NCBI GenBank assembly: GCA_029263455.1
Contig: JAJCXM010000038.1
Span: forward strand, 186,001 to 250,000
Length of the DNA: 64,000 bases
DNA from: Holophagae bacterium
GTDB taxonomy: Bacteria > Acidobacteriota > Holophagae > Acanthopleuribacterales > Acanthopleuribacteraceae
Direction: 5' to 3'
Part shown: one piece after another, positions 2,058-32,296 of the stretch
How the letters are laid out: every line of letters begins with the position of its first letter
Position numbering within the stretch: the first letter of the stretch is position 1
Translations under genes and position numbers: made by a program
Notes under the pieces: model-generated
Told to the model about the DNA's origin: nothing
Database searches by the model: none
The model's input: only the letters and a program-made list of their open reading frames with translations

Positions 2058-2683
2058 TTTCAATCAGTTTGCCGGGAAAATAGATTTTTCTTGACTTGCC
2101 GGTGGATACGAATCTAACTGCTTGGTTCTTTAGCTACATACTCATGTGTAAACTTTTTTACTTGGCGAATACTTCGACCAAGGTGGTGCTTCAGCCGCCT
2201 TGCTCCCTTCGAACAATCATATTCACCGGGGGTATCCTACTTTTCCACAGTTTCCACAAAAGAAAAAAAGAAGCAAAAAGAAGCCACGACTACGACGACG
2301 GTCTATATCCACCTATTCTTCTTTACTTTCGGCAGCAATCTCACGTACCAGGGCGACACATCAAGCCCCGAAACCGATTTGAGATGACCCAGATGTGCCC
2401 TGTAGCACAGGCGTCGCCAGAGGTTATAATCCGTTTGTATTCAGGATAGTCATTCTGACCGCAATGTCGAATTATGGAGTTTTGCGACAGCCTCGTCCCG
2501 TGTGTGGTCTTAAGATGTTTGATATCAAGATATTAGGACATCTAGAAATGACGTTTTTATATCAGGTTTCCTGCCGCCCAAGGGGCTCGATGAGTGTGGT
2601 GGATGTAACCCCGGCCTTACGACCGGGGCTATGATCTACCGGCTCTGTGAGACTCGAACCCTCTTGTTATTCGCCGATGAGTT

Positions 2684-2878
2684 GAAGTAACCCCGTCTGA
2701 GAATCGAGTGCAGCGAGGTTCGCAAGCGAAAGGGAAGGGAGGTGCGCGTGATTTCGATGCTACGTACTCGAGCACCTCACTGCGTTCGATGCCCGGGTTC
2801 AGCTCTCCAGTTTAATGAACACTTCGTCCAAAGCGGTACCTCAGTCGCTCGGGCTCCTGTCGATACGCGCACTCCGCC
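2684..2878. repeat. Dispersed intergenic repeat, copy 1
   Basis: About 195 bp, closely matching 7144-7337 and, more loosely, 14190-14335. The left half has a long imperfect inverted repeat: an arm ending GCAGCGAGGT near 2720 pairs with ACCTCACTGCGTTCGAT near 2800. A shorter AGGTGC/GCACCT stem is nested in it. The right half carries the conserved string CTTCGTCCAAAGCGGTACC. It lies between genes and has no coding signal. No terminal inverted repeats or target duplications are visible, so it does not look like a simple MITE. Confidence 0.75.
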
Positions 2879-6924: not shown

Positions 6925-7143
6925 AGCTCATACGCTCGAAAAGCCATTGCGGACGACAATCAATTTGTTTGGTAAAAACCTCGATATAAACTGCTTATTT
7001 TCAGGCAGAGTGTCGGTGTTGACTGAATCTTATTTGGGAATCGATTGATTTCAAAGTCGGTTCTGTTTTTTCCGACGAAGTGACGGTGTCGACAGGAGTC
7101 TAAACTACTGAGGCACATTTTCGCCGAAGAAGTGGAGTGAGTC

Positions 7144-7337
7144 GAAGTAACCCCGTCTGTGAATCGAGCGCAGCGAGGTTCGCAAGCGAAAGAGAAGGGA
7201 GGTGCGCGTGATTACACGCCACGTACCCGAGCACCTCACTGCGTTCGATGCCCGGTGGCAGCTCTTCAGTGGGACTATCACTTCGTCCAAAGCGGTACCT
7301 CAGTCGCTGCGCTCCTGTCGATACTCGCACCCCGCCT
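7144..7337. repeat. Dispersed intergenic repeat, copy 2
   Basis: Closely matches 2684-2878 over its full length, with the same order of blocks: GAAGTAACCCCGTCTG, the GCAGCGAGGTTCGCAAGCG arm, GAGCACCTCACTGCGTTCGA, then CTTCGTCCAAAGCGGTACC. The inverted-repeat arms (ATCGAGCGCAGCGAGGT against ACCTCACTGCGTTCGAT) differ by only two positions, one of which would be a G-U pair in RNA. That makes a structured RNA or a structured mobile relic plausible. Confidence 0.75.
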
Positions 7338-14056: not shown

Positions 14057-14189
14057 TCACATCTCCTGTCTCATAAGCAACTTAACGATTCCGATCACCT
14101 GAATCAAGTTAGTTTTGAAGACATTAGATTCGAGTTCGAATCAGTTCCCCGGCTTTATTCGTTCGCTGTATCCCATTCTGAAGTGAAGA

Positions 14190-14335
14190 GAACTCAGTGC
14201 GACGGAGCTTCGCAGGCGCTGGGGCAGGGGAGTTGCGCGTGGTTTCGAGGCTACGAACCCGAGCACCTCACTGCGTTCGATGCCCGGCTATTCAACATGG
14301 CTGGCAAATCGTCCATGGCGGTACGTCCTTCGCCG
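14190..14335. repeat. Dispersed intergenic repeat, copy 3 (degenerate)
   Basis: The central block GAGCACCTCACTGCGTTCGA followed by TGCCCGG is identical to copies 1 and 2, as are nearby GTTGCGCGTG-like and GGCGGTACGTCC-like phrases. The left arm is diverged (CAGTGCGACGGAGCTTCGCA). It appears to be an older or partial member of the family. Confidence 0.6.
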
Positions 14336-15010: not shown

Positions 15011-16795
15011 CTAGTTAGAGGTACTTTTTTTAGCTGTGCGATTGCTAGCCATCGGTGAATGGAAGGGAACCGGTAGCCAAAGTTGAAAAACATAGGCATC
15101 GTTGCTGTGAATCGTGTCAGGCTCAGACGTGGCTAGGACCGATTGACTTGATTTGCAGACGAACACCGCAACGCCGGTGGTGCTAAAGCGAGCGAGTGTG
15201 GCTTCATCGAAGTTAGCGATCGCTCGCTGAGGTTGCTTCTTTAGTCCGAAAGCCAGTTCACCCTGATCCCCCAAGATAAACAGGTCGTTGCGGTCGAGCG
15301 CCCACGCCACCGAGGTGGAAATGGGACCTTCAGCCAAGACCGCCATTCCCGGTGGGATCATAGGTTTTGCTGACTCAAAAAAGGCTACTGGCGCCTTCTT
15401 ATTCAGCAATTCCTTCGGTAACAACCATGTCAAGGAAGCCGTAATCAAAACGGCGTGGCTTGCCATGGCCAAAAAAAGAAAGCCACGATTCTTAAAGACC
15501 AATGGCGAAATGCTTATGCCCGCGGCCGTCCAAAGAATGGCAGCAAGTATCGCGGACTTAAACGGCTCGTTGGCCAAATGAACGACATCGGGGGCATAGA
15601 TGACCAAGCCGCCCAACGCGATGAGCAGAAGATTCCAAAGATGGATGGAAATGCGAGGGGAGATCTTTCCGCTCTCGTAGGCATCCACCGCTCTGGCAAT
15701 CATGAGCGCAACGGCCGGCATGGCGGGTAATAAATAGGTTGCCAATTTGCCCGACGAACAGGAGAAGAATACGAGGGGCATGATTACCCAGCAAATGGAG
15801 AGCTTGTCTAACTCATCTGTATTTTGTTTTTTGCACACCAGCGTCACTGAGTGCGGTAAGAATGAAACCCAGGGCAGCGTCGCAAGAACGATCACGGGAA
15901 TGAAGTACCAAATAGGTTCAGGATGTTGAGAGGGTGGAGCCGAAATGAACCGTTGAACATGTTCGGTCCAAAAAAAGTATTCGAAATAGTCGGGTCGACT
16001 CTTGTAAACCGACAAACACCAACCGAGGGGCGTCAATGAGGCCCCAAGAATAATCCAAGGCAGTTTCCTCAGCGTAGTGGTCAAAGTTTTGGTCCAAAGC
16101 GCAAAGGGCCCAAGCACAATCGCCGGCAAAAGGAATCCTAGCAAGCCCTTTGTCATGAATGCCAATCCGGCACAAACGCCTGCGGATACAAGGATCAACC
16201 ATTGTCGTTTTTCCAATTCTCGTGATTTCAAGAATAGAACAATCGAAGCGGTAACGAACAAAGTGAATAGGCTGTCCAATAGCACCATCCTGCCGGTGAT
16301 ACTGACCAAGAGCAAGGTGATGTAAATGGTGGCCGCTTTCCACGATTGATCTTTCCTAGACGTTTTATGCAGTAGTAATACCAAACACAGGCCAGTCAGA
16401 AGTGCGGAAGCTGCCGAGGGTAACCGCGATCCTTGCGCGCCAAAACCGAAAAGGTTCATGGTCGCGGCGTGAATCCAATAGCCCAGAATGGGTTTTTCAA
16501 AATAGTCGAGCCCGTTAAGCTGTGGAACGGACCAATGGTCATCAAGCAACATTTCTTTAGGTATTTGCGAGTAGCGGGTTTCGTCAGGGTGGAACAAGGG
16601 CCGGCTCGAGATTCCAGCGAGGTAGACGGCAGCAAAAGCCACGAGAAAGAGAATTTTCCATTTGTGTCCACCACCATAGCGTGATGGTTGCGAGCATTTG
16701 TCATTCTCAGCTTGCGAGCTACTATTACGAATGGTTGTATGAGACCGCTCGTCTGTGAACTCATAGGTGGGTGTGCGATTACTGCTGTCTAACAT
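15011..16795 (-). CDS. Second ArnT-like lipid A glycosyltransferase (GT83/PMT superfamily)
   Basis: 594 residues, many membrane segments. The first periplasmic loop has the ArnT signature FHPDETRYSQIPKEML and FEKPILGYW, nearly the same as in the arnT gene at 23014, so the two are paralogues. ArnT transfers Ara4N from undecaprenyl phosphate to lipid A at the periplasmic face. This copy carries an extra 44-residue hydrophilic N-terminus not expected for ArnT, and no ribosome-binding site precedes the ATG at 16795. The true start may be internal, or the mRNA may be nearly leaderless (see the promoter at 16802-16836). It probably forms an operon with the PepSY gene. The donor sugar or acceptor site may differ from that of the other ArnT; this is inference. 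Confidence 0.85.
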   Translation of the reverse strand: MLDSSNRTPTYEFTDERSHTTIRNSSSQAENDKCSQPSRYGGGHKWKILFLVAFAAVYLAGISSRPLFHPDETRYSQIPKEMLLDDHWSVPQLNGLDYFEKPILGYWIHAATMNLFGFGAQGSRLPSAASALLTGLCLVLLLHKTSRKDQSWKAATIYITLLLVSITGRMVLLDSLFTLFVTASIVLFLKSRELEKRQWLILVSAGVCAGLAFMTKGLLGFLLPAIVLGPFALWTKTLTTTLRKLPWIILGASLTPLGWCLSVYKSRPDYFEYFFWTEHVQRFISAPPSQHPEPIWYFIPVIVLATLPWVSFLPHSVTLVCKKQNTDELDKLSICWVIMPLVFFSCSSGKLATYLLPAMPAVALMIARAVDAYESGKISPRISIHLWNLLLIALGGLVIYAPDVVHLANEPFKSAILAAILWTAAGISISPLVFKNRGFLFLAMASHAVLITASLTWLLPKELLNKKAPVAFFESAKPMIPPGMAVLAEGPISTSVAWALDRNDLFILGDQGELAFGLKKQPQRAIANFDEATLARFSTTGVAVFVCKSSQSVLATSEPDTIHSNDAYVFQLWLPVPFHSPMASNRTAKKSTSN

Positions 16796-17031: not shown

Positions 17032-17727
17032 TCAGCTATTTGAAACGGATTGAATGGGCTGACCTTCAATAAAGTATCCAAGCCCCTTTTTTGTGCGGAT
17101 TAATTTGCTTTGGTCAAATGCAGCCAATTTTCGACGTAGTGAACATATATGCACGTCAATGACGTTACTTGCTATGTCCTCTTCGCTACTATAAATGCCT
17201 TCAACAATCGCTTCACGAGATCGTATTTGACCACGGCTAAGTGCTAACAACTCTAAAATGCCATACTCAGATTTGGTCAGCTTTATGTCTTGCTCATCAA
17301 CTGCCACCGTTTTTAGCGCGGTATTAATTTTCATGGGACCAATGGCGATGGTGGGAGACTTCTGTCCGTACTTTCGTCGGATCAGAGCGTCAATTCGAGC
17401 TAATAGCTCCGCGAACGAGAAGGGTTTGCTCATATAGTCATCGGCGCCGTACTCAAGAGCCTGTAAGCGGTGTTCAACCTGGAAACGGGCTGAGAGCACC
17501 AGCACAAAAGTTTCGTCACCCTGTGTTCGAATGGTTTTTAACAAGCTGTAACCGTCCATTTCAGGCATCATCAAATCCAGCAACATCACATCGTAATGGT
17601 ATGACTTCAAATGATCTAAAGCCTGTACGCCGTTTTCGGCGCAGTCGACGGCAAAGCCTTCGCGTCGAAGTCCTTCGTGCAGAATGTGCCTTAGCCTGTT
17701 TGAGTCTTCAACAATAAGTATCTTCAA
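17032..17727 (-). CDS. OmpR/PhoB-family response regulator, orphan (no adjacent kinase)
   Basis: 231 residues. The receiver domain has acidic residues near 7-8, the phospho-acceptor Asp51 in LLDLMMPEMDGY and Lys in YMSKPFSFAEL. The C-terminal winged-helix domain has the recognition helix ASNVIDVHICSLRRKL. The protein is a close paralogue of the regulator at 43747, whose helix is ASNVVDVHVCSLRRKL, so both should read the same DNA. No histidine kinase lies next to it; the nearest is at 42314. It is transcribed divergently from arnB, and its own promoter carries the same TTCAT box, which suggests autoregulation. Role by position: PmrA-like control of lipid A modification (inference). Confidence 0.92.
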   Translation of the reverse strand: MKILIVEDSNRLRHILHEGLRREGFAVDCAENGVQALDHLKSYHYDVMLLDLMMPEMDGYSLLKTIRTQGDETFVLVLSARFQVEHRLQALEYGADDYMSKPFSFAELLARIDALIRRKYGQKSPTIAIGPMKINTALKTVAVDEQDIKLTKSEYGILELLALSRGQIRSREAIVEGIYSSEEDIASNVIDVHICSLRRKLAAFDQSKLIRTKKGLGYFIEGQPIQSVSNS

Positions 17728-17771
17728 TGCCCGTCAGTCCTGTCGTGGGATCACAATACTGTGTCCTATGA

Positions 17772-17980: not shown

Positions 17981-18008
17981 TTGGAGTTGAGATGTGGGAG
18001 GGCAGGTG

Positions 18009-19160
18009 ATGGCCAATCAAATCATGCAGAGACAATTGCCATTATGTAGACCCAGTATCACGCAACTTGAAACTAGAGCCGTTCTGGAAGTCATGCAAAG
18101 TGGTTGGCTAACGACGGGTGCCAAGGCGCTCGAATTTGAAGAACGCTTTCGCGCATTTGTCGGTAGCGACTTCGCCGTCGCTGTCACGTCAGGTACGGCT
18201 GCGATGCACGTCGTTTTTCATGGTTTGAACATCGGGCCAGGTGATGAAGTGATTACGCCGTCGTTGACTTGGGTTTCGACGATTAACCTTATTGAGTTGA
18301 TGGGAGCCAAGCCGGTATTTGTGGATGTCGATCGCCATAACCTCATGACTTCGGCTGAGCATATTGAAAAACTGATCACCCGGCGAACGAAAGCCATTGT
18401 GCCCGTTCATTTTGCGGGCGCAGCTTGTGATGTCGATTCGATCAATTCCCTAATTGGCGAGCGGCAAATCACGCTTATTGAAGATACCGCGCATGCGGTG
18501 GGCACCAAATTCAACGAAAAGCAGGTCGGCAGCAAATACAACTCGGTATTTTCGTTTCATGCCATTAAGAATCTGACCACTGGCGAAGGTGGCATGGTTT
18601 GTTCCAACGACCAAGAACTTGTGGAACGCATACGGCGCGTAAAGTTCCACGGTTTGGCCGTTGATGCATTTGACCGTGTTACCCAAGGAAGACGACCTCA
18701 AGCGATGGTGGTCGAGCCTGGCTTCAAATACAACATGACCGATATGTGTGCTGCGCTAGGGCTGGTGCAGCTGGATCGTATTTTTGAGATCAATCAAAAA
18801 CGGTGCGCGCTGGCGCAACACTACCAGCTAAGGATTGCGGGTATCAAAGGCGTCGATCCTCTTTCGGTTCCCGACACAACAACGCATGCGTGGCATTTAT
18901 TTATCGTCCGCGTCACCGCAGAAAAGCACACACGAGAAGAGGTGATGAGTTTCCTGTCGGCACGCGGAATAGGATCAGGCATACACTTTTTGCCCGCTCA
19001 TCAACACCCTTACTATTTAAATAAGTATGGGCCACACAAGCATCTAAAAAATAGCGAATGGAATGGATCGCGCATTATGAGTTTACCCCTTTATCCAGAT
19101 ATGGAGATGGCCGACGTAGACCACATTTGCGACGTTCTGGAAGAGGCGGTCAAACCATGA
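18009..19160 (+). CDS. arnB: UDP-4-keto-pentose (UDP-L-Ara4O) aminotransferase ArnB
   Basis: 383 residues from ATG 18009 (GGAGGG upstream; an in-frame GTG at 17994 is less likely). DegT/DnrJ/EryC1-type PLP aminotransferase: PLP lysine in SFHAIKNLTTGEGGM, GTAAMH cofactor loop, EDTAHA aspartate. ArnB makes UDP-Ara4N from UDP-Ara4-ketopentose and glutamate in the cytoplasm. Length matches the enterobacterial enzyme (about 380). First gene of arnBCADT; its stop overlaps the arnC start by 4 nt. Controlled by the TTCAT-box promoter at 17946. Assignment is strengthened by the operon. Confidence 0.93.
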   Translation: MANQIMQRQLPLCRPSITQLETRAVLEVMQSGWLTTGAKALEFEERFRAFVGSDFAVAVTSGTAAMHVVFHGLNIGPGDEVITPSLTWVSTINLIELMGAKPVFVDVDRHNLMTSAEHIEKLITRRTKAIVPVHFAGAACDVDSINSLIGERQITLIEDTAHAVGTKFNEKQVGSKYNSVFSFHAIKNLTTGEGGMVCSNDQELVERIRRVKFHGLAVDAFDRVTQGRRPQAMVVEPGFKYNMTDMCAALGLVQLDRIFEINQKRCALAQHYQLRIAGIKGVDPLSVPDTTTHAWHLFIVRVTAEKHTREEVMSFLSARGIGSGIHFLPAHQHPYYLNKYGPHKHLKNSEWNGSRIMSLPLYPDMEMADVDHICDVLEEAVKP

Positions 19161-20131
19161 ACAGAATTGAACTATCGGTGGTGATACCGGTTTATAACGA
19201 GGAGTCCAATCTTGGATCGCTAATTGACCGCTGTATGAATGTGCTTTGGAACTGCGGCGTGACATTTGAATTGCTTCTGGTTGATGACGGCAGTGGTGAT
19301 CGTTCTGCACAGATGATAGGTAACGCCGCAGAACATTACGATGAAGTGGTTGGTGTTCTGCTCAATCGCAACTATGGGCAGCACGCAGCGATAATGGCGG
19401 GATTCGAGCATTGTCGTGGCGAAATTGTTGTTACCTTAGACGCCGATCTTCAGAATCCTCCAGAGGAGATACCTCGACTGGTGGAGATGATCAATAAGGG
19501 CCATGATGTGGTCGGCAGTGTTCGACGAAACCGCAAGGACAGTTTTTTCAGACGTTTAGCATCGTCGGCTGTCAATTGGGTGATTCGACGTTCAACCGGT
19601 ATTGGCATGCGAGATTATGGCTGCATGCTGCGCGCTTATAGGCGAGATATTATTGACGCCATATTAGCTTGTCGTGAAAAAACGACCTTTATCCCTGTGT
19701 TGGCAAACTCATTTGCCAGTTCGCCAGCTGAGGTTGAGGTGAAACACGACAGTCGACGTGACGGCGAAAGCAAATACAACCTGTTCCGACTGATCACATT
19801 GCAATTTGATCTCATCACCAGCATGACAACCTTCCCAATTCGTATGTTGACGTTTATCGGTATTGTCTTGGCCGGGATCGGACTTGGTTTGTCGTTACTC
19901 ATTCTTGTCCTAAGGCTTGTCTATGGTCCGACATGGGCTGTTGGCGGTGTATTTACGTTGATGGCGGTTGTATTGGCCTTTATGGGCATTCAGCTTCTTA
20001 GTCTGGGGCTCATTGGGGAATACATTGGCAGGGTATTTGTGCAAGTTCGAGATCGACCAGCCTTTTGGGTTAAGCAAGTCGTCGGACTAAATGTCCATAA
20101 GAAAATCAAGAAAATTGGGGAGGTCGTCTAA
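19157..20131 (+). CDS. arnC: Undecaprenyl-phosphate Ara4FN transferase ArnC
   Basis: 324 residues from ATG 19157, overlapping the arnB stop (ATGA). GT2 domain with [18 protein letters not shown] and [14 protein letters not shown], followed by two C-terminal membrane segments (about residues 230-260 and 270-295), exactly the ArnC/DPM1-like layout. It moves formylated Ara4N from UDP to undecaprenyl phosphate at the inner face of the inner membrane. The stop codon shares one base with the arnA start. The in-frame sequence upstream of 19157 lies inside arnB and is not part of this gene. Confidence 0.93.
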
Positions 20132-22128
20132 TGAAGGCCATCGTTTTTGCGTATCACAACATGGGATGCATTGGCTTGGAATTGGTCCAGAAAGCTGGCT
20201 TCGATGTAGCTGCAGTATTTACCCACGCTGATGACCCTAATGAAAATCGTTGGTTCGAGTCGGTGGCGGAAAAGGCTAGTGAGTTGAACATACCAGCCTA
20301 TGCGCCTGCTGATGTGAATGACGCGGTCTGGATCCAAGAAATAGCTAATCTCAAAGCCGACGTCATTTTCTCTTTTTATTATCGACACTTGATCAAAAAA
20401 GAGATATTGGATTTGGTGCCGATGGGTGGGTTTAACTTACACGGCTCGTTGCTGCCACAATATCGAGGTCGCTGTCCAGTGAATTGGGTGCTTGCCCGTG
20501 GAGAATCTCAGACCGGCGTGACCCTTCATGCCATGACCGAGCGCGCTGACCAGGGTGCTATTGTCGATCAATGCGTCGTCGACATTGACGAAGATGATGA
20601 TGCTCGGAGTTTGTTTGTGAAGCTAGAACTGAGCGCACAGCAATTACTGAAACGAACTCTGCCCTCCATATACTGCAATCAATTTCAGCTAAATACTCAG
20701 GATGAAAGCCAAGCCAGTTATTTCGGTGGTCGGAGCCCAAAAGACGGGAAAATAAATTGGGACATGCCAGCCAGTGATATTAGAAACCTAGTCAGAGCTG
20801 TCACAGATCCTTATCCGGGCGCCTTCACCTATTTCAATCGCGAGAAGATATTCGTTTGGAAGGCTCTGGTTGTCGCCCAAAGCACACGTGCAACACCGGG
20901 GACCGTCATCAGCACTTCGCCTTGGACCGTAGCTTGTGGCGATCAAGCGCTTGTGATTGAGCAGGCCCAGCTGTCAGGAGATATTAAGCTATCTGGTTCA
21001 GAGTTGTGTTCTCGGCTAGGCGCAATTGAGAATCGACAACTCGGCGTTGAACCCAAGTCTGACAAGAAGAAGACGCGCGTTTTGATTCTTGGTGTTAATG
21101 GGTTTATTGGCAATCATCTGACGGAGCGCTTATTGCGCGAAGAGAACTATGAAGTCTATGGCCTAGACCTCGATTCCTGCAGCTTAGAGCGCTTCAAGGG
21201 CCACCCGAATTTCCATTTCTTTGAAGGAGACATTTCCATTCATCGTGAGTGGATCGAATATCACGTGCGTAAATGTGACGTGGTGATCCCGTTAGTGGCC
21301 ATTGCCACACCCATTGAATACACGCGTAATCCGCTACGTGTTTTTGAATTAGATTTTGAAGAGAATTTACGCATCGTTCGCTACTGCGTCGAGTATAAGA
21401 AACGATTGATTTTTCCGTCGACGTCAGAAGTCTATGGCATGTGCCAAGATGAACGATTTGATGAACAGCAGTCTAACTTTGTGTTGGGTCCCATCGAAAA
21501 ACAGCGTTGGATTTACTCATGTAGTAAACAATTGCTGGATCGTGTCATTTGGGCCTATGGGCAACAGACGGGATTGGATTTTACCTTGTTCAGACCCTTT
21601 AACTGGGTGGGACCACGCCTGGATTCTCTAGAATCCGCACGAGTTGGTAGTTCGCGAGTCGTGACTCAGTTCATCTTGAATTTGGTTGAGGGATCACCCA
21701 TCCAACTCGTTGGCGGGGGAAACCAATGTCGATGTTTCACCGACGTTGGCGATGGCGTAGAAGGCCTATTTCGGATCATCGAAAACAAGAATCAGGCGGC
21801 ATCGGGAAAAATCTTCAACTTAGGTGCGCCTAATAATGTAGCCAGCATTCGTGAATTAGCAGAATTACTGATTGATCTGTTCGCCAGGCACCCATTGGCG
21901 GCAGACTTCCCGGTTGCAAGTGGCGTGCGAGTGGTAGATGAAAGGACTTTTTATGGTTCTGGATACCAAGACCTCATTCACAGAAAACCATCGATCAGCG
22001 AAGCAAAGAAATACTTGAAATGGGCGCCACGTGTTGCTCTTCGAGACGCGATCGAAAATACACTGGACTACTTTATCTATTCAGCGATTGAAGAGAGGCA
22101 GTTCCTTGAAACTAGCGCTGCGCATTGA
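20131..22128 (+). CDS. arnA: Bifunctional UDP-Ara4N formyltransferase / UDP-GlcA dehydrogenase ArnA
   Basis: 665 residues (E. coli ArnA has 660). N-terminal formyltransferase (about 1-300) with [19 protein letters not shown], holding the catalytic Asn and His. The C-terminal short-chain dehydrogenase part (about 315-655) has the NAD motif [10 protein letters not shown] and the Y-x-x-x-K pair in YSCSKQ. The C-terminal domain oxidatively decarboxylates UDP-glucuronate to UDP-Ara4O; the N-terminal domain formylates UDP-Ara4N. Both domains look complete, so the pathway can run without a separate dehydrogenase. Confidence 0.95.
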
Positions 22129-23005
22129 CGTCGACACACTAAGAGGCACGCTTATTGGCGTACCGCAGCTTGTAAAGATATTGGCTGAACTTGACGTCAA
22201 AGCTACGTTCTATTTCTCGGTAGGACCTGACAATATGGGCCGTCACGTGTGGCGGCTTATTAGGCCGAAATTTGCCATGAAGATGATGCGCACCAATGCC
22301 AATCGGCTTTATGGCTGGCGAACTTTACTGAACGGTACCTTTTGGCCCGGCCCCATGATCGGGGAAAAAGCAGCCGATGAAATTCGTGAGGTAGCAGATG
22401 CGGGTCACGAAGTCGGGATCCATGCGTGGGATCACCATGGCTGGCAGAGACGGACAGACCTAGATTCAAAAAGGGAAGTTAATGGCGATTTGATCAGAGC
22501 TTATGGCGCTTTGAAAGAGATCGTGGGCGATCGCATCAGCTCATCGGCTACGCCAGCCTGGATGACGAGTGAAGAGGTCTGCAGACAGAAACTGCAGTTT
22601 CCCTTTCAATTCAATTCTGACTGCCGGGGCTACAGCGCCTTTCGACCGCAACTGAGCCGCGATGAAATAGGCCAAATTCAGATTCCAACCACGCTACCCA
22701 CCTACGATGAAATGGCTGGAATAGGTAACATGGGTGCAAGCGGATTCTTTGCTCACATCAAGAGTCTGCTTCTTTCGGATTCAATGAATGTCTATACGGC
22801 ACATGCTGAAGTCGAAGGCATGTCTCTGGCTGAGCCATTCAAATCCTTCCTTAAGGACAGCATCGCTAGCGGGTTTGAGATATGTCACTTAGGCAAAATA
22901 GTGCGCGATATGGACACTGAAGCGCCGCTTTCAACGTTGCAACGACGTGCCTTAAAGGGCCGAGATGGTTGGCTGTCATGGCAGGCCGAATGCCCTGTGA
23001 AATAG
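22106..23005 (+). CDS. arnD: Ara4FN-undecaprenyl-phosphate deformylase ArnD
   Basis: 299 residues from a TTG start at 22106, chosen because LALRIDVDT aligns with the usual N-terminus and AGAGGC lies upstream; it overlaps the arnA end by 23 nt. NodB-like polysaccharide deacetylase fold: metal aspartate in RIDVDT, the [15 protein letters not shown] block, and HAWDHHGWQ with the H-x-x-x-H metal pair. ArnD removes the formyl group so that the lipid carrier can be used by ArnT. Length is normal (about 296). Confidence 0.93.
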
Positions 23006-23013
23006 ATCCCAGT

Positions 23014-24654
23014 ATGAAGTGGCAGAAAGGCACCTTCTGGCTCTTGTTTATGGCCATTTATGGGGTTGGAATTGGATACCTTCCTCTATTCATGCCAGAT
23101 GAGACACGCTATGCGGAAATACCGCGTGAAATGTTAGAGGCAAAAAACTGGTCGGTTCCGACTCTGAACGGATTGCCCTATTTCGAAAAACCGGTATTGG
23201 GTTATTGGGCCGTCGCTTGTTCGATGGCGGTGTTTGGCGAAACTGAGCTTGCCGTTCGCTTACCTGCGGCGTTGGCCGTGCTTTTGACTGCTCTGGTTAT
23301 GGCTAGATTTATGCAATTCGTGGGTTTTGGGGCCTATCGCTATCAAGCAGCGATCGTCTTTATGAGCTGCTTATTGGTGGCTTGTTTGGGTCGACTCGCC
23401 CTGTTGGATAGTCTTTTTAGCCTGTGCGTTTGTTTGAGTGTGGTTTTGTATTTTGTAGGCAGCAATATAACAAGCGGGCGCCAGTCGGCGTGGGTTTTTG
23501 CCGCAGGTGCTGCCGCGGGTTTAGCCTTCTTGGTAAAAGGATTTCTCGGGTTTTTGTTACCTGCCTTGATTCTAGGACCGTTTTTTGTATGGCAAGGCAT
23601 GGTGAAATCCACGCTGTCTCGCGTTCATTGGGCGATTTTTGGGGCGCTGATTGTTCCTTTGCCGTGGGCGTTAATGGTTCATGCTCAGGAAGCAGATTTT
23701 TGGCGCTATTTCATTTGGGTAGAACATATTCAACGTTTCTTTTCGGCTCCAAAATCTCAACATCCTGAGCCTTGGTGGTATTACTTGCCCGCACTTGGCG
23801 TTGGAACATTTCCCTGGGTATTCTATTTAATCGGAAAGATCCGTCTAAAAATGAGCGCGCCAATGGAAACGCGATTTGTTCGGTTACTCTTATGCTGGAT
23901 TCTGTTTCCAGTGGCGTTCTTCAGTATTTCGTCCGGCAAATTATTGACCTACGTCTTGCCCGTTTTCCCCGCATTTGCCATGCTCCTATGTGTCATTGCC
24001 AAGACCAGGTCCATGAAGACGCTCGCATTCCCCAGGCACGTGCATTTATGGATTGGAATGTCAATTATTGGGCTGGGTTTAACGACAATGATTGTCAGCT
24101 CGTTCAGTTTTTATCAGCCCAATGAATCAGGAACGGCACAGCTATTTAGCTGGGTTATTGTTGCAGTTGGCGCTCTCGTGGTCTGGTCAAGAAATACAAA
24201 CAGGTCCTCTCTTGGCATTGCTCTGGCCATGGCTACGTTCATGGTTTCGCTGCCCTGGATTTTGCCAACTAAACTGATGGAACGTAAGGCACCGGTCGAA
24301 TTGATCGAACAGTCCCACGTTCACTTGAATGACCAAATGACGATCGTTTCCGATAGTTCCATGATCCATTCCGTCAATTGGACACTCAAACGCAAATGCC
24401 TGTACATGATCGGTGATCGCGGGGAACTTGATTATGGGCTCAACTATCATCCTCAATTGTGGCTCCAAGAATCTGAATTCAAAGATCTTATCTTGGCCAG
24501 TGCCGAACATGGTTTGGCGTTGTTTACGACCCAAAAAACACTTGCTACCCTTAACGTTCCGACACCGGATTTACAGTCTGGTAACCAGAAATTTGTCTAT
24601 TTAATTTGGAAACCCATTGTTCGAAGTTCAAGTTCTCCGCGGCCATCGAGTTAA
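23014..24654 (+). CDS. arnT: Lipid A Ara4N transferase ArnT
   Basis: 546 residues taking the ATG at 23014 (in-frame ATGs at 22978 and 22990 are alternatives; none has a strong ribosome-binding site). About 12 membrane segments. First periplasmic loop: MPDETRYAEIPREML with the catalytic-type Asp-Glu, then YFEKPVLGYW. ArnT moves Ara4N to lipid A phosphates, lowering surface charge and giving resistance to cationic peptides. It closes arnBCADT. No arnE/arnF flippase genes follow: the next gene is the PAP2 phosphatase with its own promoter. A paralogue is at 15011. Confidence 0.93.
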   Translation: MKWQKGTFWLLFMAIYGVGIGYLPLFMPDETRYAEIPREMLEAKNWSVPTLNGLPYFEKPVLGYWAVACSMAVFGETELAVRLPAALAVLLTALVMARFMQFVGFGAYRYQAAIVFMSCLLVACLGRLALLDSLFSLCVCLSVVLYFVGSNITSGRQSAWVFAAGAAAGLAFLVKGFLGFLLPALILGPFFVWQGMVKSTLSRVHWAIFGALIVPLPWALMVHAQEADFWRYFIWVEHIQRFFSAPKSQHPEPWWYYLPALGVGTFPWVFYLIGKIRLKMSAPMETRFVRLLLCWILFPVAFFSISSGKLLTYVLPVFPAFAMLLCVIAKTRSMKTLAFPRHVHLWIGMSIIGLGLTTMIVSSFSFYQPNESGTAQLFSWVIVAVGALVVWSRNTNRSSLGIALAMATFMVSLPWILPTKLMERKAPVELIEQSHVHLNDQMTIVSDSSMIHSVNWTLKRKCLYMIGDRGELDYGLNYHPQLWLQESEFKDLILASAEHGLALFTTQKTLATLNVPTPDLQSGNQKFVYLIWKPIVRSSSSPRPSS

Positions 24655-24835: not shown

Positions 24836-25747
24836 GTGCACGTACTTTGCTTATTGCTTTTTCAGACGGTTCAATTTGAGGATTCAAACGCCATTGAACC
24901 TATTCGCGCACGAGATGCCTGGCAATTTGTTTCGTTCAAAATTGCTGAGAACATGCCTATGACCCCAGAAGGTATTGAGTTTTCTGGGCAGGACTCAAAC
25001 GAACCAAATTTTGGGTCGATGTTGTGGCAGGATACGGTGGATGTGTTGAAAACTCCATTACGTTGGAACCAGGGCGATCTTCTTGAGATGGGCTCTTTGG
25101 TTGCCGGAATCGCGCTGGTGAATCAATTCGATGATCAAATCATGGATTTTTCGCAGAGTAATAACAATCCCGCATTGAATTTCACGTCAAAAGAGATAGG
25201 GCGGTTCGGTGAAGAGTATTCGTTTGCAACCTTAGCCGCATTCTACTTGTCGGGGAAATTATTTAAGGATGAAAAGGCAGTCATGGTTGCCAAAGATGGA
25301 TTGATCGCCAGCATTATCGCGGCGGGTGTTGTTACCCCCTTGATCAAGGAGGCTGGGGGGCGCGTTCGGCCTCGTGACCAAACGGGCGAAGGTGATTTTC
25401 AACCATTTAGCGGCAATCACTCGTTCCCCTCGGGTCATACAACTCAAGCCTTCGCGATTGCAAGCGTCATATCAGAACACTACACAAATCCTTGGGCAAG
25501 GGGTGCTAGTTACGGTCTGGCGTCGCTAGTAGGTTTGTCGCGTATCCAGGATGACGCTCATTACGCTTCTGATGTGGTGGCCGGCGCTGCGATAGGATTT
25601 TTGATTGGACGAAAAGTTGTGCGATTGAATTTGGGTAAACGAGATAGGATCACCATTGACGCCAGTGTGTCTGATGGCTATTTGGGCGTTCGCATCCGTG
25701 TACCACAAGAACGTCGAGGAATCCGAGAGCTACTTGGATTTGATTAA
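24836..25747 (+). CDS. PAP2-superfamily membrane phosphatase
   Basis: 303 residues from GTG 24836 with AAGGAGG 6 nt upstream. All three PAP2 signatures are intact: KEAGGRVRP (near 177), PSGH (near 197) and SRIQDDAHYASD (near 235-246). Such enzymes act at the periplasmic side on lipid phosphates: lipid A 1- or 4'-phosphate (LpxE/LpxF-like), undecaprenyl pyrophosphate or phosphatidylglycerol phosphate. Its place after arnT and the shared promoter box favour a lipid A or lipid-carrier substrate, but the sequence alone does not decide. The last 138 bp recur at 30352-30489. Confidence 0.85.
   Translation: MHVLCLLLFQTVQFEDSNAIEPIRARDAWQFVSFKIAENMPMTPEGIEFSGQDSNEPNFGSMLWQDTVDVLKTPLRWNQGDLLEMGSLVAGIALVNQFDDQIMDFSQSNNNPALNFTSKEIGRFGEEYSFATLAAFYLSGKLFKDEKAVMVAKDGLIASIIAAGVVTPLIKEAGGRVRPRDQTGEGDFQPFSGNHSFPSGHTTQAFAIASVISEHYTNPWARGASYGLASLVGLSRIQDDAHYASDVVAGAAIGFLIGRKVVRLNLGKRDRITIDASVSDGYLGVRIRVPQERRGIRELLGFD
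25606..25743 (+). repeat. 138-bp direct repeat, left copy (3' end of PAP2 gene)
   Basis: Identical to 30352-30489 except for one base (T at 25714, C at 30460): 137 of 138. The two copies are in the same orientation, offset by 4,746 bp, and bracket the RND operon. Identity stops abruptly two bases before the PAP2 stop codon region on the right. Confidence 0.95.
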
Positions 25748-25833
25748 TAGCATGTGCGATTGCTCGCTAGCATCGTTTTCGATTGACATGTGCGCTGGCG
25801 TAGAAGAAATGGCGTTCAGGGCTAATTTTGGCC

Positions 25834-28800
25834 TCAGGACCTGCGGCCGAAAAGACGATAAAGCACAGGTACCGCAAATAGCGTCAGCAGACTCGAAAAG
25901 GCCAAGCCAAATACGATCGCTATGGCGACGGGTCCCCAGATCAATGATTTCCCGCCTAAACCAGTCGCCAACGAGAACAGGCCCGCCATCGTCGTTAAGG
26001 TGGTGATCATAATGGGAACAACTCGCCGTTTTGAGGCATAAATCACGGCGTTAGTCACGTTCATGCCTTCCTGTAATCGAGAATTAGCCGCGGAAATCAA
26101 GACAATAGATGCGTTGACGGCTATTCCCGTTAATGCCACCACGCCATACAGCGTGAACAAACTCAGTGGATTGCCGGTTAGCCATAAGCCAAATACAACA
26201 CCTGTGAATGCCATCGGGATTGTACTCAGGATGAGTAGTGGCTGGAAGTAGCTTTTGAATTGGGTGCCAATAATCAAATAGATCAATAAGACGCCGAAAA
26301 TGAATAGAACACGCATGGCGTCAAGACTCTCTTGAATATCATCGAGTTCGCCAGAAAAATCCAGATCAATATTTGGATGTCGTAGTGAGCGTGATTCCCA
26401 TGCCTTAAGTAACATGGCGTTCGCGCTTACGGTGTCGATGACGTGCTCGTCTAAGTCCGCTTCCACACTGATGCTGCGCCTGTAGTTGTAGTGACGAATT
26501 TCACCTCGCCCTTGCCTGTGGTTGACCTCTACAAGCTCGCTAAGGGGAATTTCGAAACCAGCGCCATTGGGGATCAGCGTTCGCAATATCTCGTTGGGGT
26601 CGGTCACGACTTTAGGTTTGGCACGCACGCGCACTTCTAATTCTTCGCCGCGATCTTGCATGGCTGCTACGACTTCGCCATCAACCATTAACCTCAAATC
26701 ACGTGCTAGTGATCCTGGGTCCATCTCTGTATCTTTTAACGCTTTGAGATTATAGGTCATGGCCAATTCGGAACGGCCCGGAATCGCGTCGTCGGTGATA
26801 TCAAGGACGCCGTTGATATCTGCAAGAATGGTTTTGATTTCAGCGACCGCCGCCTCGATCTCGTCAAAATCATCACCGCGAACTTTGACATTGATGGGTT
26901 TGGTCGTTGGCGGGCCACCCTCAATTCTCAGAAAAGCAACATTGGAGGCACCGGACACAGCCATTAAGTCTGCGCGCATCTCTTCAATTATTTCGTGAAC
27001 ACCACGCATGCCATTCTTTTTGGGATTTAAGCTGACTAGAACTTGTCCATATTGGTCGCCAAACAAGGGTTCAATTTCTGTAAACAACTGACCCGAGTAG
27101 CTGACCACTGCCCGCCGTTCGTGCTCTTGCAAATGGCTGCGAACAATGGTTTCGAGTTCATTGGCTTTCTTCAACGTATCTTGCAGATTGGTGCCTTTTG
27201 GCATCTCCAAGCTGACGTAGAAAATGCGAAGTGGGTCGCTTGCGAAGAAATCGACGCGGATCTTGCCGGAACCAACCGCTAGAACGGCGACACTAAATAA
27301 AACAAAGACCACGCCGAGGGTGATATACCAGTAGCGCATAGATTTGATGAGCAATCGCGTGTAGATAATTCGAACTCCGTGGTTAAAACGGCGTCTTAAG
27401 CGTTGAAGTCTAGAATTTGAGTTCACTTTTTTCAGGCTTAGTATGTGTGCAGGCAACATCCAGTAGGATTCAACCAAGCTCAACAATAACGCCACCGACA
27501 CCACGACGGGCACAACGCCCATGAACTTACCGACAATGCCAGGCATGAGCAGTAAGGGAAGAAAAGCGGCCATAGTGGTAAGCACTGAGGTGGTCACAGG
27601 AGGGACAACTTCTTTGAGCGCTAAGGAAACGGCAGCCATTCTTGACTCGCCGCGATTGATGCGATGGTAAATGTTCTCAACGACAACGACGGCATCATCT
27701 ACTAACATTCCCAGTGAAATCACAACTCCCAGAAGCACCATAACGTTGAGGGTGTGTCCCATTAGGGCCAAGATCCAGAAGGTCCCGCAAAGGATAAATG
27801 GAATGCCGATGCACACCAGTCCGGCTATTCGAAAACCTAAGAACGCCCAAGAGACAAGGAGAACCAGGATCAAACCGACTACTGCATTGTTCTGCATGAC
27901 GCTAATGGCATTACGAGTCGTTTCGGTCTGATCGTCGGCAAGGATGACGGTTACGCCAGTCTGTGGTTGGTAACGGTTGCTTTCGGCGACGTAGTCCTTG
28001 ATTCGTTCCACCAGTTCGATGGTATTGGTACCCTCTTTTTTTGTGATCGCAAACATGATGGCTGGCTTACCGTTAAAACTGACCATGCGACTCGGCTTCT
28101 CGCGGCCCCGCCTTACTTCGGCCACCTCACCTAGCTCTACGGGTCCGTGTGCGCCGAGAATCGGCAAACGAGCTAGGTAGCTGGGGTCCGAATCGGTTCC
28201 AATGAGACGGATAAGCCATTCTTCTGAACCCACCTTTTGAGTTCCGGCCGGAGTGTCTTTGAAATAGGATTGAACCGTGTTGGCCAAATCACTCGGCCGT
28301 ATGCCCAATCCGTTGAGTTTGGCGGGCTCAAATAGGACTTGCAGTTCTGGCTCTAATAGCCCTGTAGGTGTGGCTTTATCAACGCCCTTGATTCGTTCGA
28401 GGTCTTTACGTGCTCGCTCAGCCATGCGTCGCAGATTCTCGTCATCTGCAGGGCCAGTCATGATAACCGTGGCAGCGGGAAACCCGTTGGCGGAGGTTAT
28501 TTCCAGAATTTCGGGGTCTTCTATTTCTGTTGGCAGTTCATCTTGTTTGTTTTGGATTTCGCGCCTTAAGTCAGTCACCCGCTTATCGAATGTGCGTGAC
28601 GAAATATCATTAAATCGCACGAGAATACTAGATACAGATTCACGGGAAGTTGCCGACACAAAACGGATATCTGACACGCGTCGCAGCACATCCTCAATGG
28701 GATCTGTTACCCTTTTTTCCACGTCTTCAGCGGATGCACCGGGCATAAGTGTTGTAATTTGGATCCAATTGAAATTGACGGTGGGATCCTGCTCCCTGGG

Positions 28801-28896
28801 CATCATGCTGTAGTAGATAGCACCCACAACCAACACCAACACAAAGGTCATGTTGGCCAGTACATGATTCTCAAGGAAACGCTGCATAAATCTCAT
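25834..28896 (-). CDS. RND-family efflux transporter (AcrB/HAE1-like inner-membrane pump)
   Basis: 1020 residues, the usual length. First membrane helix near residues 10-30, then a large periplasmic domain, a 5-helix block with the proton-relay pair in GMLVDDAVVVVEN, a second periplasmic domain, and a final helix block. Proton-driven export of drugs or other amphiphiles across the envelope. Starts with ATGA overlap to the upstream membrane-fusion gene, so both are co-translated. No TolC-type outer-membrane channel is encoded nearby. Flanked by the 138-bp direct repeat, which may mark acquisition as a cassette. Confidence 0.93.
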   Translation of the reverse strand: MRFMQRFLENHVLANMTFVLVLVVGAIYYSMMPREQDPTVNFNWIQITTLMPGASAEDVEKRVTDPIEDVLRRVSDIRFVSATSRESVSSILVRFNDISSRTFDKRVTDLRREIQNKQDELPTEIEDPEILEITSANGFPAATVIMTGPADDENLRRMAERARKDLERIKGVDKATPTGLLEPELQVLFEPAKLNGLGIRPSDLANTVQSYFKDTPAGTQKVGSEEWLIRLIGTDSDPSYLARLPILGAHGPVELGEVAEVRRGREKPSRMVSFNGKPAIMFAITKKEGTNTIELVERIKDYVAESNRYQPQTGVTVILADDQTETTRNAISVMQNNAVVGLILVLLVSWAFLGFRIAGLVCIGIPFILCGTFWILALMGHTLNVMVLLGVVISLGMLVDDAVVVVENIYHRINRGESRMAAVSLALKEVVPPVTTSVLTTMAAFLPLLLMPGIVGKFMGVVPVVVSVALLLSLVESYWMLPAHILSLKKVNSNSRLQRLRRRFNHGVRIIYTRLLIKSMRYWYITLGVVFVLFSVAVLAVGSGKIRVDFFASDPLRIFYVSLEMPKGTNLQDTLKKANELETIVRSHLQEHERRAVVSYSGQLFTEIEPLFGDQYGQVLVSLNPKKNGMRGVHEIIEEMRADLMAVSGASNVAFLRIEGGPPTTKPINVKVRGDDFDEIEAAVAEIKTILADINGVLDITDDAIPGRSELAMTYNLKALKDTEMDPGSLARDLRLMVDGEVVAAMQDRGEELEVRVRAKPKVVTDPNEILRTLIPNGAGFEIPLSELVEVNHRQGRGEIRHYNYRRSISVEADLDEHVIDTVSANAMLLKAWESRSLRHPNIDLDFSGELDDIQESLDAMRVLFIFGVLLIYLIIGTQFKSYFQPLLILSTIPMAFTGVVFGLWLTGNPLSLFTLYGVVALTGIAVNASIVLISAANSRLQEGMNVTNAVIYASKRRVVPIMITTLTTMAGLFSLATGLGGKSLIWGPVAIAIVFGLAFSSLLTLFAVPVLYRLFGRRS

Positions 28897-29873
28897 CGGA
28901 CTTGGATTGTATCCCCGTCCTGAAGTCCTAATCGTCCTTCATCAATTATTTGGGTTTGTGGAGGCAAGTCTATTTCTGCTGCCCGACCTTCCACTGCATT
29001 GGCGATCGCGATGAATTGCGCCTTGTCGCCATCAACCACCATCACGCCTAACCGCGAGCCTCTCTTCACAAGTAACGAAGGAGGTAGAGAATCCGTGACG
29101 CTCTCCCACGTGACAACGCCGGTCACTCCTGGTGCAAGTGGCTTGTCGGTAAATCTTAGTCGTGCCTCAGCGGTTCGCGACTTGGAATCAAAAATGGGTG
29201 AAATTTGAATCAATGCCAAGCTATGTGACTCTTGATTAAAGTGAAAACGAAGATTAACGCCTTGTTCGACGGATCGGCTCTGCGATTCGGTCAAACGTAC
29301 GGAGACACTCGGCCTGTCAGCTTGAACTAATCGAACAAGCGGCTGACCAACCGTTGTCCATTGGCCCTTATGCGCGTTTCTTTCGGTGATATAGCCAGAG
29401 AATGGGGCTGCCACTCTACATTTTTCAACCTGGAGCTGGGCCGTCTGCCATTGAGCTTGTCGCGTAAGTACGACCGCTTCCATGGCCATCTTCTCGGCCA
29501 CACGCTGCGAATGCAGGTCGACGCTAATAATGGCGTCGTCGACTAAAGTTTGTGAACGATCTAGCTGCAAGCTGGCCAACTCTAACCTGGCTTGGGCCTC
29601 TTGAAGCGAGCCCAGTGTTTCCTGAAGATTTAGGTCGTAGGTTCTGCAGTCTAATTGCAGTAGAGGTGAGCCTTGCTCGACATAATCACCTACTTCAACC
29701 TGCACCGCTTCAACGACCGCCGATATTTCGCTGCTAATTTCACTATCCCAGCGCGCGACAACTTGCGCCGTCACCTCATACCGTTGATGGAAAGTGACGT
29801 CCTGAGCGTTGATAGTCCGAACGGCAACGGGTGGTGTCTGAAAAAAGACGAAAAATATCAAAGCACTAACCAT
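28893..29873 (-). CDS. RND periplasmic adaptor (membrane-fusion protein)
   Basis: 326 residues from ATG 29873 (GGGAG 9 nt upstream; the frame extends a further eight codons upstream without reason). Signal sequence at residues 1-20, then split biotinyl-lipoyl hairpin: VQVEVGDYVEQGSPLLQLDC before, and CRVAAPFSGYITERNAHKGQ after, a short coiled-coil hairpin, followed by beta-barrel and membrane-proximal domains. The adaptor links the RND pump to an outer-membrane channel. It is first in the operon and overlaps the pump start by 4 nt. Confidence 0.92.
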   Translation of the reverse strand: MVSALIFFVFFQTPPVAVRTINAQDVTFHQRYEVTAQVVARWDSEISSEISAVVEAVQVEVGDYVEQGSPLLQLDCRTYDLNLQETLGSLQEAQARLELASLQLDRSQTLVDDAIISVDLHSQRVAEKMAMEAVVLTRQAQWQTAQLQVEKCRVAAPFSGYITERNAHKGQWTTVGQPLVRLVQADRPSVSVRLTESQSRSVEQGVNLRFHFNQESHSLALIQISPIFDSKSRTAEARLRFTDKPLAPGVTGVVTWESVTDSLPPSLLVKRGSRLGVMVVDGDKAQFIAIANAVEGRAAEIDLPPQTQIIDEGRLGLQDGDTIQVR

Positions 29874-30229
29874 TGCTTTCAACTCCCTGAAAAACAAAAC
29901 TTAGTCTACGTGCGGCAAAGGGTCAAGTTGCAATCACCTTTAATCAATCAGTTAATCGACGAAGATTAATGAAATATGGCTCTATGTAGTAACTGGTCTT
30001 AAAACGACCATCGTGGCGGTTGTTGGTTAATCCGCGGTTACGACGTGGCGTGGCCAGAGGATCCATACATGGCATGACGGTCAAAAAGGACAATACGTGT
30101 GGCGGATCGACAGCTAAAAGTAGCGTTGCTTTTTATATATCGCCGTAGAGGCAATAATGGATGTGTGGCAAGTGCAATATTTTCAGTCTCTTGTGCCGAG
30201 GACGAACGAAGTCAAAAGAGATCAGAGGC

Positions 30230-30493
30230 TATTTTTGTTGGCAGAACCGATCATGCTTTCAAAGCTTGGATAACCATTAGACAGCGAGATGATTACATGC
30301 GCTATGTTTACTACTCACGATGTTAGTGACGTCCGGCGCTGGACTCTTGAATGGACGAAAAGTTGTGCGATTGAATTTGGGTAAACGAGATAGGATCACC
30401 ATTGACGCCAGTGTGTCTGATGGCTATTTGGGCGTTCGCATCCGTGTACCACAAGAACGCCGAGGAATCCGAGAGCTACTTGGATTTGACTAG
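30230..30493 (+). pseudogene. Decayed PAP2 phosphatase copy with intact 3' end
   Basis: 30352-30489 is 137/138 identical to the PAP2 gene's 3' end. Upstream, similarity to the PAP2 gene is weak but colinear: a segment reading GRTDHAFK replaces GHTTQAFA (the PSGH histidine is lost), then RQRDDYMRYVYYS stands for RIQDDAHYASD, then a stop. CCGGCGCTG is shared just before the identical block. It is a broken paralogue or recombination scar and cannot encode an active phosphatase. The abrupt change from decay to near-identity suggests gene conversion or site-specific exchange at the 3' end. Confidence 0.7.
30352..30489 (+). repeat. 138-bp direct repeat, right copy
   Basis: Partner of 25606-25743 (one mismatch). 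Recombination between the copies would delete the RND operon and leave an intact PAP2 reading frame, since this copy is followed by its own in-frame stop (TAG). Confidence 0.95.
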
Positions 30494-32002: not shown

Positions 32003-32078
32003 TCCGGTGTAGCTCAGTTGGTAGAGCAGACGGCTGTTAACCGTCTTGTCCGCGGTTCGAGTCCGTGCACCGGAGCCA
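32003..32078 (+). tRNA. tRNA-Asn (GTT)
   Basis: 76 nt including encoded CCA. Acceptor TCCGGTG pairs with CACCGGA, D-arm GCTC/GAGC, anticodon stem GACGG/CCGTC with loop CTGTTAA giving anticodon GTT, T-arm CGCGG/CCGTG with TTCGAGT loop. A terminator hairpin follows at once. Confidence 0.97.
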
Positions 32079-32121
32079 TTTATTACAAGGGGTTTAGGAG
32101 AAATACCTAAGCCCCTTTTTT
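32066..32121 (+). repeat. 56-bp direct repeat, copy 1 (tRNA-Asn 3' end plus terminator)
   Basis: Covers the last 13 nt of the tRNA (TGCACCGGAGCCA) and the hairpin terminator AAGGGGTTTAGG / CCTAAGCCCC with a T-run. Perfectly repeated at 32241-32296. Confidence 0.95.
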
Positions 32122-32240: not shown

Positions 32241-32296
32241 TGCACCGGAGCCATTTATTACAAGGGGTTTAGGAGAAATACCTAAGCCCCTTTTTT
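32241..32296 (+). repeat. 56-bp direct repeat, copy 2
   Basis: Exact copy of 32066-32121, separated from it by 119 bp without a gene. The arrangement is that of attL/attR around a nearly deleted insertion, or of a tandem duplication in which the second tRNA body was lost. Confidence 0.95.

Follow-up and report, generated by a model that had tools for sequence, protein, structure and literature searches.

Duplication of a PAP2 phosphatase gene's 3' end across an RND efflux operon in an uncultured acidobacterium

A gene whose 3' end has been duplicated across inserted DNA is known from E. coli, in which the e14 prophage gave rise to a second copy of 165 bp from the 3' end of icd; the 12 nucleotide exchanges in it cause only two residue changes, both conservative (PMC11148124; PMC6379469). 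The locus described here resembles e14 in icd, with its icdC fragment, in that a 3' end is duplicated across an insert, both ends complete the reading frame and the differences are mostly silent (PMC11148124). It lies in a window of 64,000 nucleotides, by which we mean the whole stretch of DNA that was analyzed, from an uncultured acidobacterium, and here the 3' end of a PAP2-superfamily phosphatase gene stands on both sides of an RND efflux pump operon. The repeat is real and is an ordinary partial gene duplication; the locus illustrates clearly how an operon can stand between two copies of one gene's 3' end. The features are as follows (positions in the window).

17035-17733, reverse strand: PmrA-like response regulator (NCBIfam best match PmrA, below the equivalog cut-off)
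17991-24654, forward strand: arnB, arnC, arnA, arnD and arnT-type genes, upstream of the PAP2 gene (NCBIfam and Pfam)
24836..25747, forward strand: intact PAP2-superfamily phosphatase gene, 303 aa, GTG start (Pfam PF01569, E 6.9e-20)
25595..25747, forward strand: left repeat copy, the PAP2 3' end through its TAA stop (strict 138-bp core 25606-25743)
25834..28896, reverse strand: RND efflux permease, 1020 aa, convergent to PAP2 (Pfam ACR_tran, E 2e-167)
28893..29897, reverse strand: RND periplasmic adaptor, 334 aa (TIGR01730, 152 bits, above the cut-off of 94.9)
29898..30351, no strand: non-coding stretch (454 bp) from the pump to the right copy, its last ~45-55 nt weakly resembling PAP2 upstream of the repeat
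30341..30493, forward strand: right repeat copy, the PAP2 3' end with its own TAG stop and without a full gene (strict core 30352-30489)

The names ArnB, ArnD and ArnT are NCBIfam best matches, all below the equivalog cut-offs; ArnA was named by Pfam, and ArnC partly from gene order. The arn-type operon has an ArnT-like glycosyltransferase on either side (15011-16795 and 22969-24654); the two are 38% identical and lie on opposite strands. The PAP2 phosphatase bears a weak resemblance, under cut-offs, to LpxE and undecaprenyl-diphosphatase. PAP2 is multi-copy elsewhere in the genus, as the genus-mate has two homologues (63% and 57% identical), and the same arn-type operon is present in that genome, preceded there by one of the two PAP2 genes.

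Alignment confirmed the two directly oriented copies that had been picked out in the sequence-only reading: 25606-25743 and 30352-30489 are identical at 137 of 138 positions, the single difference being T25714/C30460, and the spacing between the copies is 4,746 bp. BLAST stretches the match to 25595-25743 and 30341-30489 (149 bp, 97.3%). One correction to the earlier description is that the copies remain homologous across their stop codons (GAT TAA and GAC TAG). A comparison by codon shows three differences (CGT/CGC, GAT/GAC and TAA/TAG), all silent or stop-preserving; the chance of three silent differences out of three is ~0.02, or ~0.05 with transitions only, for what is a small number of differences. 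The identity of the right copy stops at the PAP2 stop codon, and homology downstream of it was not significant within 60 nt (P ~0.06-0.35) and marginal at 120 nt (P 0.01-0.04). In the genome (6.25 Mb, 40 contigs), the repeat matched these two places and no third, and its match in the genus-mate was one of that genome's own PAP2 genes (74%). Because only six nearby repeat pairs (at least 40 bp, at least 90% identity, partners within 15 kb) were found in a sample of ~1.56 Mb of the genome, the PAP2 3'-end pair, which is among the two longest, is far above chance. An Rfam search of the repeat for known RNA found none apart from the tRNA.

The sequence just upstream of the right copy had been called strongly decayed, but such decay is difficult to demonstrate. 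Anchored extension upstream of the edge gave ~45-55 nt of weak homology, better than random genomic sequence in most scoring schemes (P ~0.001-0.04), in which GCCGGCGCTG...GGATTTTTGATT stands against TCCGGCGCTG...GGACTCTTGAAT; under the strictest scheme, the upstream homology past position 25594 was without significance. This faint homology suggests that identity falls from 99% to a decayed state and not to wholly unrelated sequence. Farther upstream, nothing is recognizable as PAP2: an unanchored alignment of 29871-30351 with the rest of PAP2 was no better than shuffles (28 of 100 reached the score), tblastn with three PAP2 proteins gave no significant match upstream of the right copy, and a Pfam search of the gap 29898-30351 returned nothing above cut-offs, with no integrase or other protein remnant. 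Two further candidates for this stretch were rejected, namely an internally deleted PAP2 gene with its start kept (LHALCLLL against VHVLCLLL; tblastn E 0.16) and a dispersed element in the gap, as the 16-bp motif AGTCARAAGAGATCAG, found with at most one mismatch in three other places, is too short to be meaningful.

The sequence-only reading had proposed comparing the codon usage and G+C of the pump genes with the flanks, and both turned out to be native. Among genes of comparable size on the contig, the permease is one of the most typical in codon usage (rank 0.04 of 51), the adaptor is average, and G+C is unchanged across the edges of the pump segment. No plasmid record matched, and a foreign pump was rejected on this result and the native codon usage. 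The genus-mate has an orthologue (permease 78%, adaptor ~50% and adjoining the genus-mate's permease), and a search of 396 other sampled genomes from the phylum (E up to 1e-160) listed no match to the pump above 34% identity, which argues that the pump is a resident gene of the genus. In the genus-mate, it lies at an unrelated locus, away from both PAP2 genes.

The reading that we favor, with middling confidence, is that the right copy is what is left of a second copy of PAP2, of which the 3' end survived and has stayed alike because it is recent or through gene conversion. The PAP2 gene, or its 3' part, would once have been duplicated on the chromosome, the resident pump operon would have come between the copies, and the downstream copy would then have lost all but its end; the last ~140 bp may be near-identical owing to a recent duplication, or to re-copying by gene conversion with the intact gene. 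We infer this order of events, and the gene conversion; silent-only differences and an identity ending at the stop codon are both expected of a right copy that formerly belonged to a coding gene. The native codon usage of the pump and the presence of two PAP2 genes in the genus-mate also speak for this reading. Decay of a paralogue with gene conversion, which the sequence-only reading had named as the alternative to integration, therefore fits better than integration in respect of these two features and of the faint upstream homology, although the support is weak: each of the three is weak alone, and the upstream homology is marginal and dependent on the scoring scheme. Since nothing is recognizable as PAP2 in 29898-30300, the putative second gene must have lost most of its length by deletion, and no intermediate stage of PAP2 decay was seen in the close relatives compared (one genus-mate). 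The earlier expectation for paralogue decay was a pump between two full PAP2 genes in related genomes, and in the genus-mate two full PAP2 genes and the pump occupy three separate loci. On the favored reading, the left PAP2 gene is the working one, and the right fragment has no evident function.

A one-step rearrangement would need no second gene, as a segment with the resident pump could have been inserted at the PAP2 3' end with duplication of ~150 bp, either when ends were joined after a long staggered break or when a circular piece that bore the 3' end entered by a Campbell-type single crossover. We consider it unlikely, though likelier than the other rivals: a single event suffices, the near-identity of the copies suggests that the event was recent, and the different place of the pump orthologue in the genus-mate implies that it moved in one of the two lineages. 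However, the neighbor genes of the genus-mate's pump are dispersed over other contigs in this genome, and gene order between the two genomes is so poorly kept in general that the different place says little. Moreover, a one-step insertion offers no explanation for an end of the duplicate precisely at the stop codon, for the all-silent differences or for the faint homology past the upstream edge, and leaves all three to chance.

Integration, by a site-specific recombinase, of an element that brought along a PAP2 3' end of its own, with the gene restored, the integrase later lost and the pump left between attL and attR, would reproduce the e14/icd layout, in which the duplicated gene 3' end flanks the insert; silent-only differences suit a replacement coding end, and a tRNA-Asn gene 1.6 kb away likewise has a duplicated 3' end. 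The PAP2 genes of the genus-mate have no pump alongside, but their surroundings are different. All five tyrosine integrase (PF00589) matches in the genome are on other contigs, with none on this one; the gap between the pump and the right copy holds no protein remnant; the RND permease and adaptor are the only contents between the copies; and the insert is native in codon usage and G+C, with a pump that is resident in the genus and has no plasmid match. On this evidence, the pump as a mobile element is not supported, and an e14/icd-type scar is a possible but rather improbable explanation, less likely than the remnant of a second copy. A contig misjoined across the repeat is very improbable, because although the genome is a 40-contig draft, a false join would itself need a real repeat, the copies differ at three codons, and the flanks are distinct on both sides. 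A diversity-generating retroelement was rejected, as the single core mismatch is T/C and not at a template adenine, and the genes between and beside the repeats encode the pump, PAP2, a GNAT protein and one protein without a family, with no reverse transcriptase among them.

Each copy does complete the PAP2 frame with its own stop, as the sequence-only reading had it: the in-silico joint of the left 5' part and the right 3' part encodes the 303-aa protein unchanged letter for letter. A crossover between the copies would therefore delete the pump and leave the phosphatase as it is, and the earlier claim that excision would spare the phosphatase is correct on paper. Were populations found in which such recombination removes the pump, this would be a natural efflux switch next to lipid A modification genes. 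That the pump is a self-contained, excisable chromosomal cassette with phase-like switching beside the arn-type lipid A modification locus is nevertheless extremely improbable in our view.

Other repeats were noticed in the course of this work. At the tRNA-Asn(gtt) locus (32003-32121 and 32241-32296), the last 13 nt of the tRNA and its terminator, 56 bp in all, recur exactly 175 bp downstream, and faint traces of the tRNA body precede the second copy (P ~0.001-0.02); this repeat, which shows the same pattern of a duplicated 3' end as PAP2 at a distance of 1.6 kb, looks like an old scar of integration or a tRNA duplicate that has decayed. A dispersed repeat family of ~200 bp (window positions 2678-2878, 7138-7336 and 14188-14287) has 64 full or partial matches in the genome and 0 in the genus-mate, tends to form clusters, lies close to contig ends in some places, and has two ends that recur as inverted pieces, side by side; an Rfam search of it gave no match. 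An intergenic repeat (G000:C8:98792-98972 and 99482-99659, within L079; 181 bp, 92%) lies downstream of a long repetitive reading frame, and window positions 2600-2650 are similar to it by eye.

In comparison with the described systems, the e14 prophage encodes an integrase of its own, whereas here a chromosomal-type RND pump stands alone between the copies, on a contig with no tyrosine integrase. Partial gene duplication, or a paralogue 3' fragment with gene conversion, matches the locus in having a near-identical direct partial copy, with one intact gene and one fragment. We see no specific difference from this class; here, the fragment happens to sit beyond a resident pump operon.
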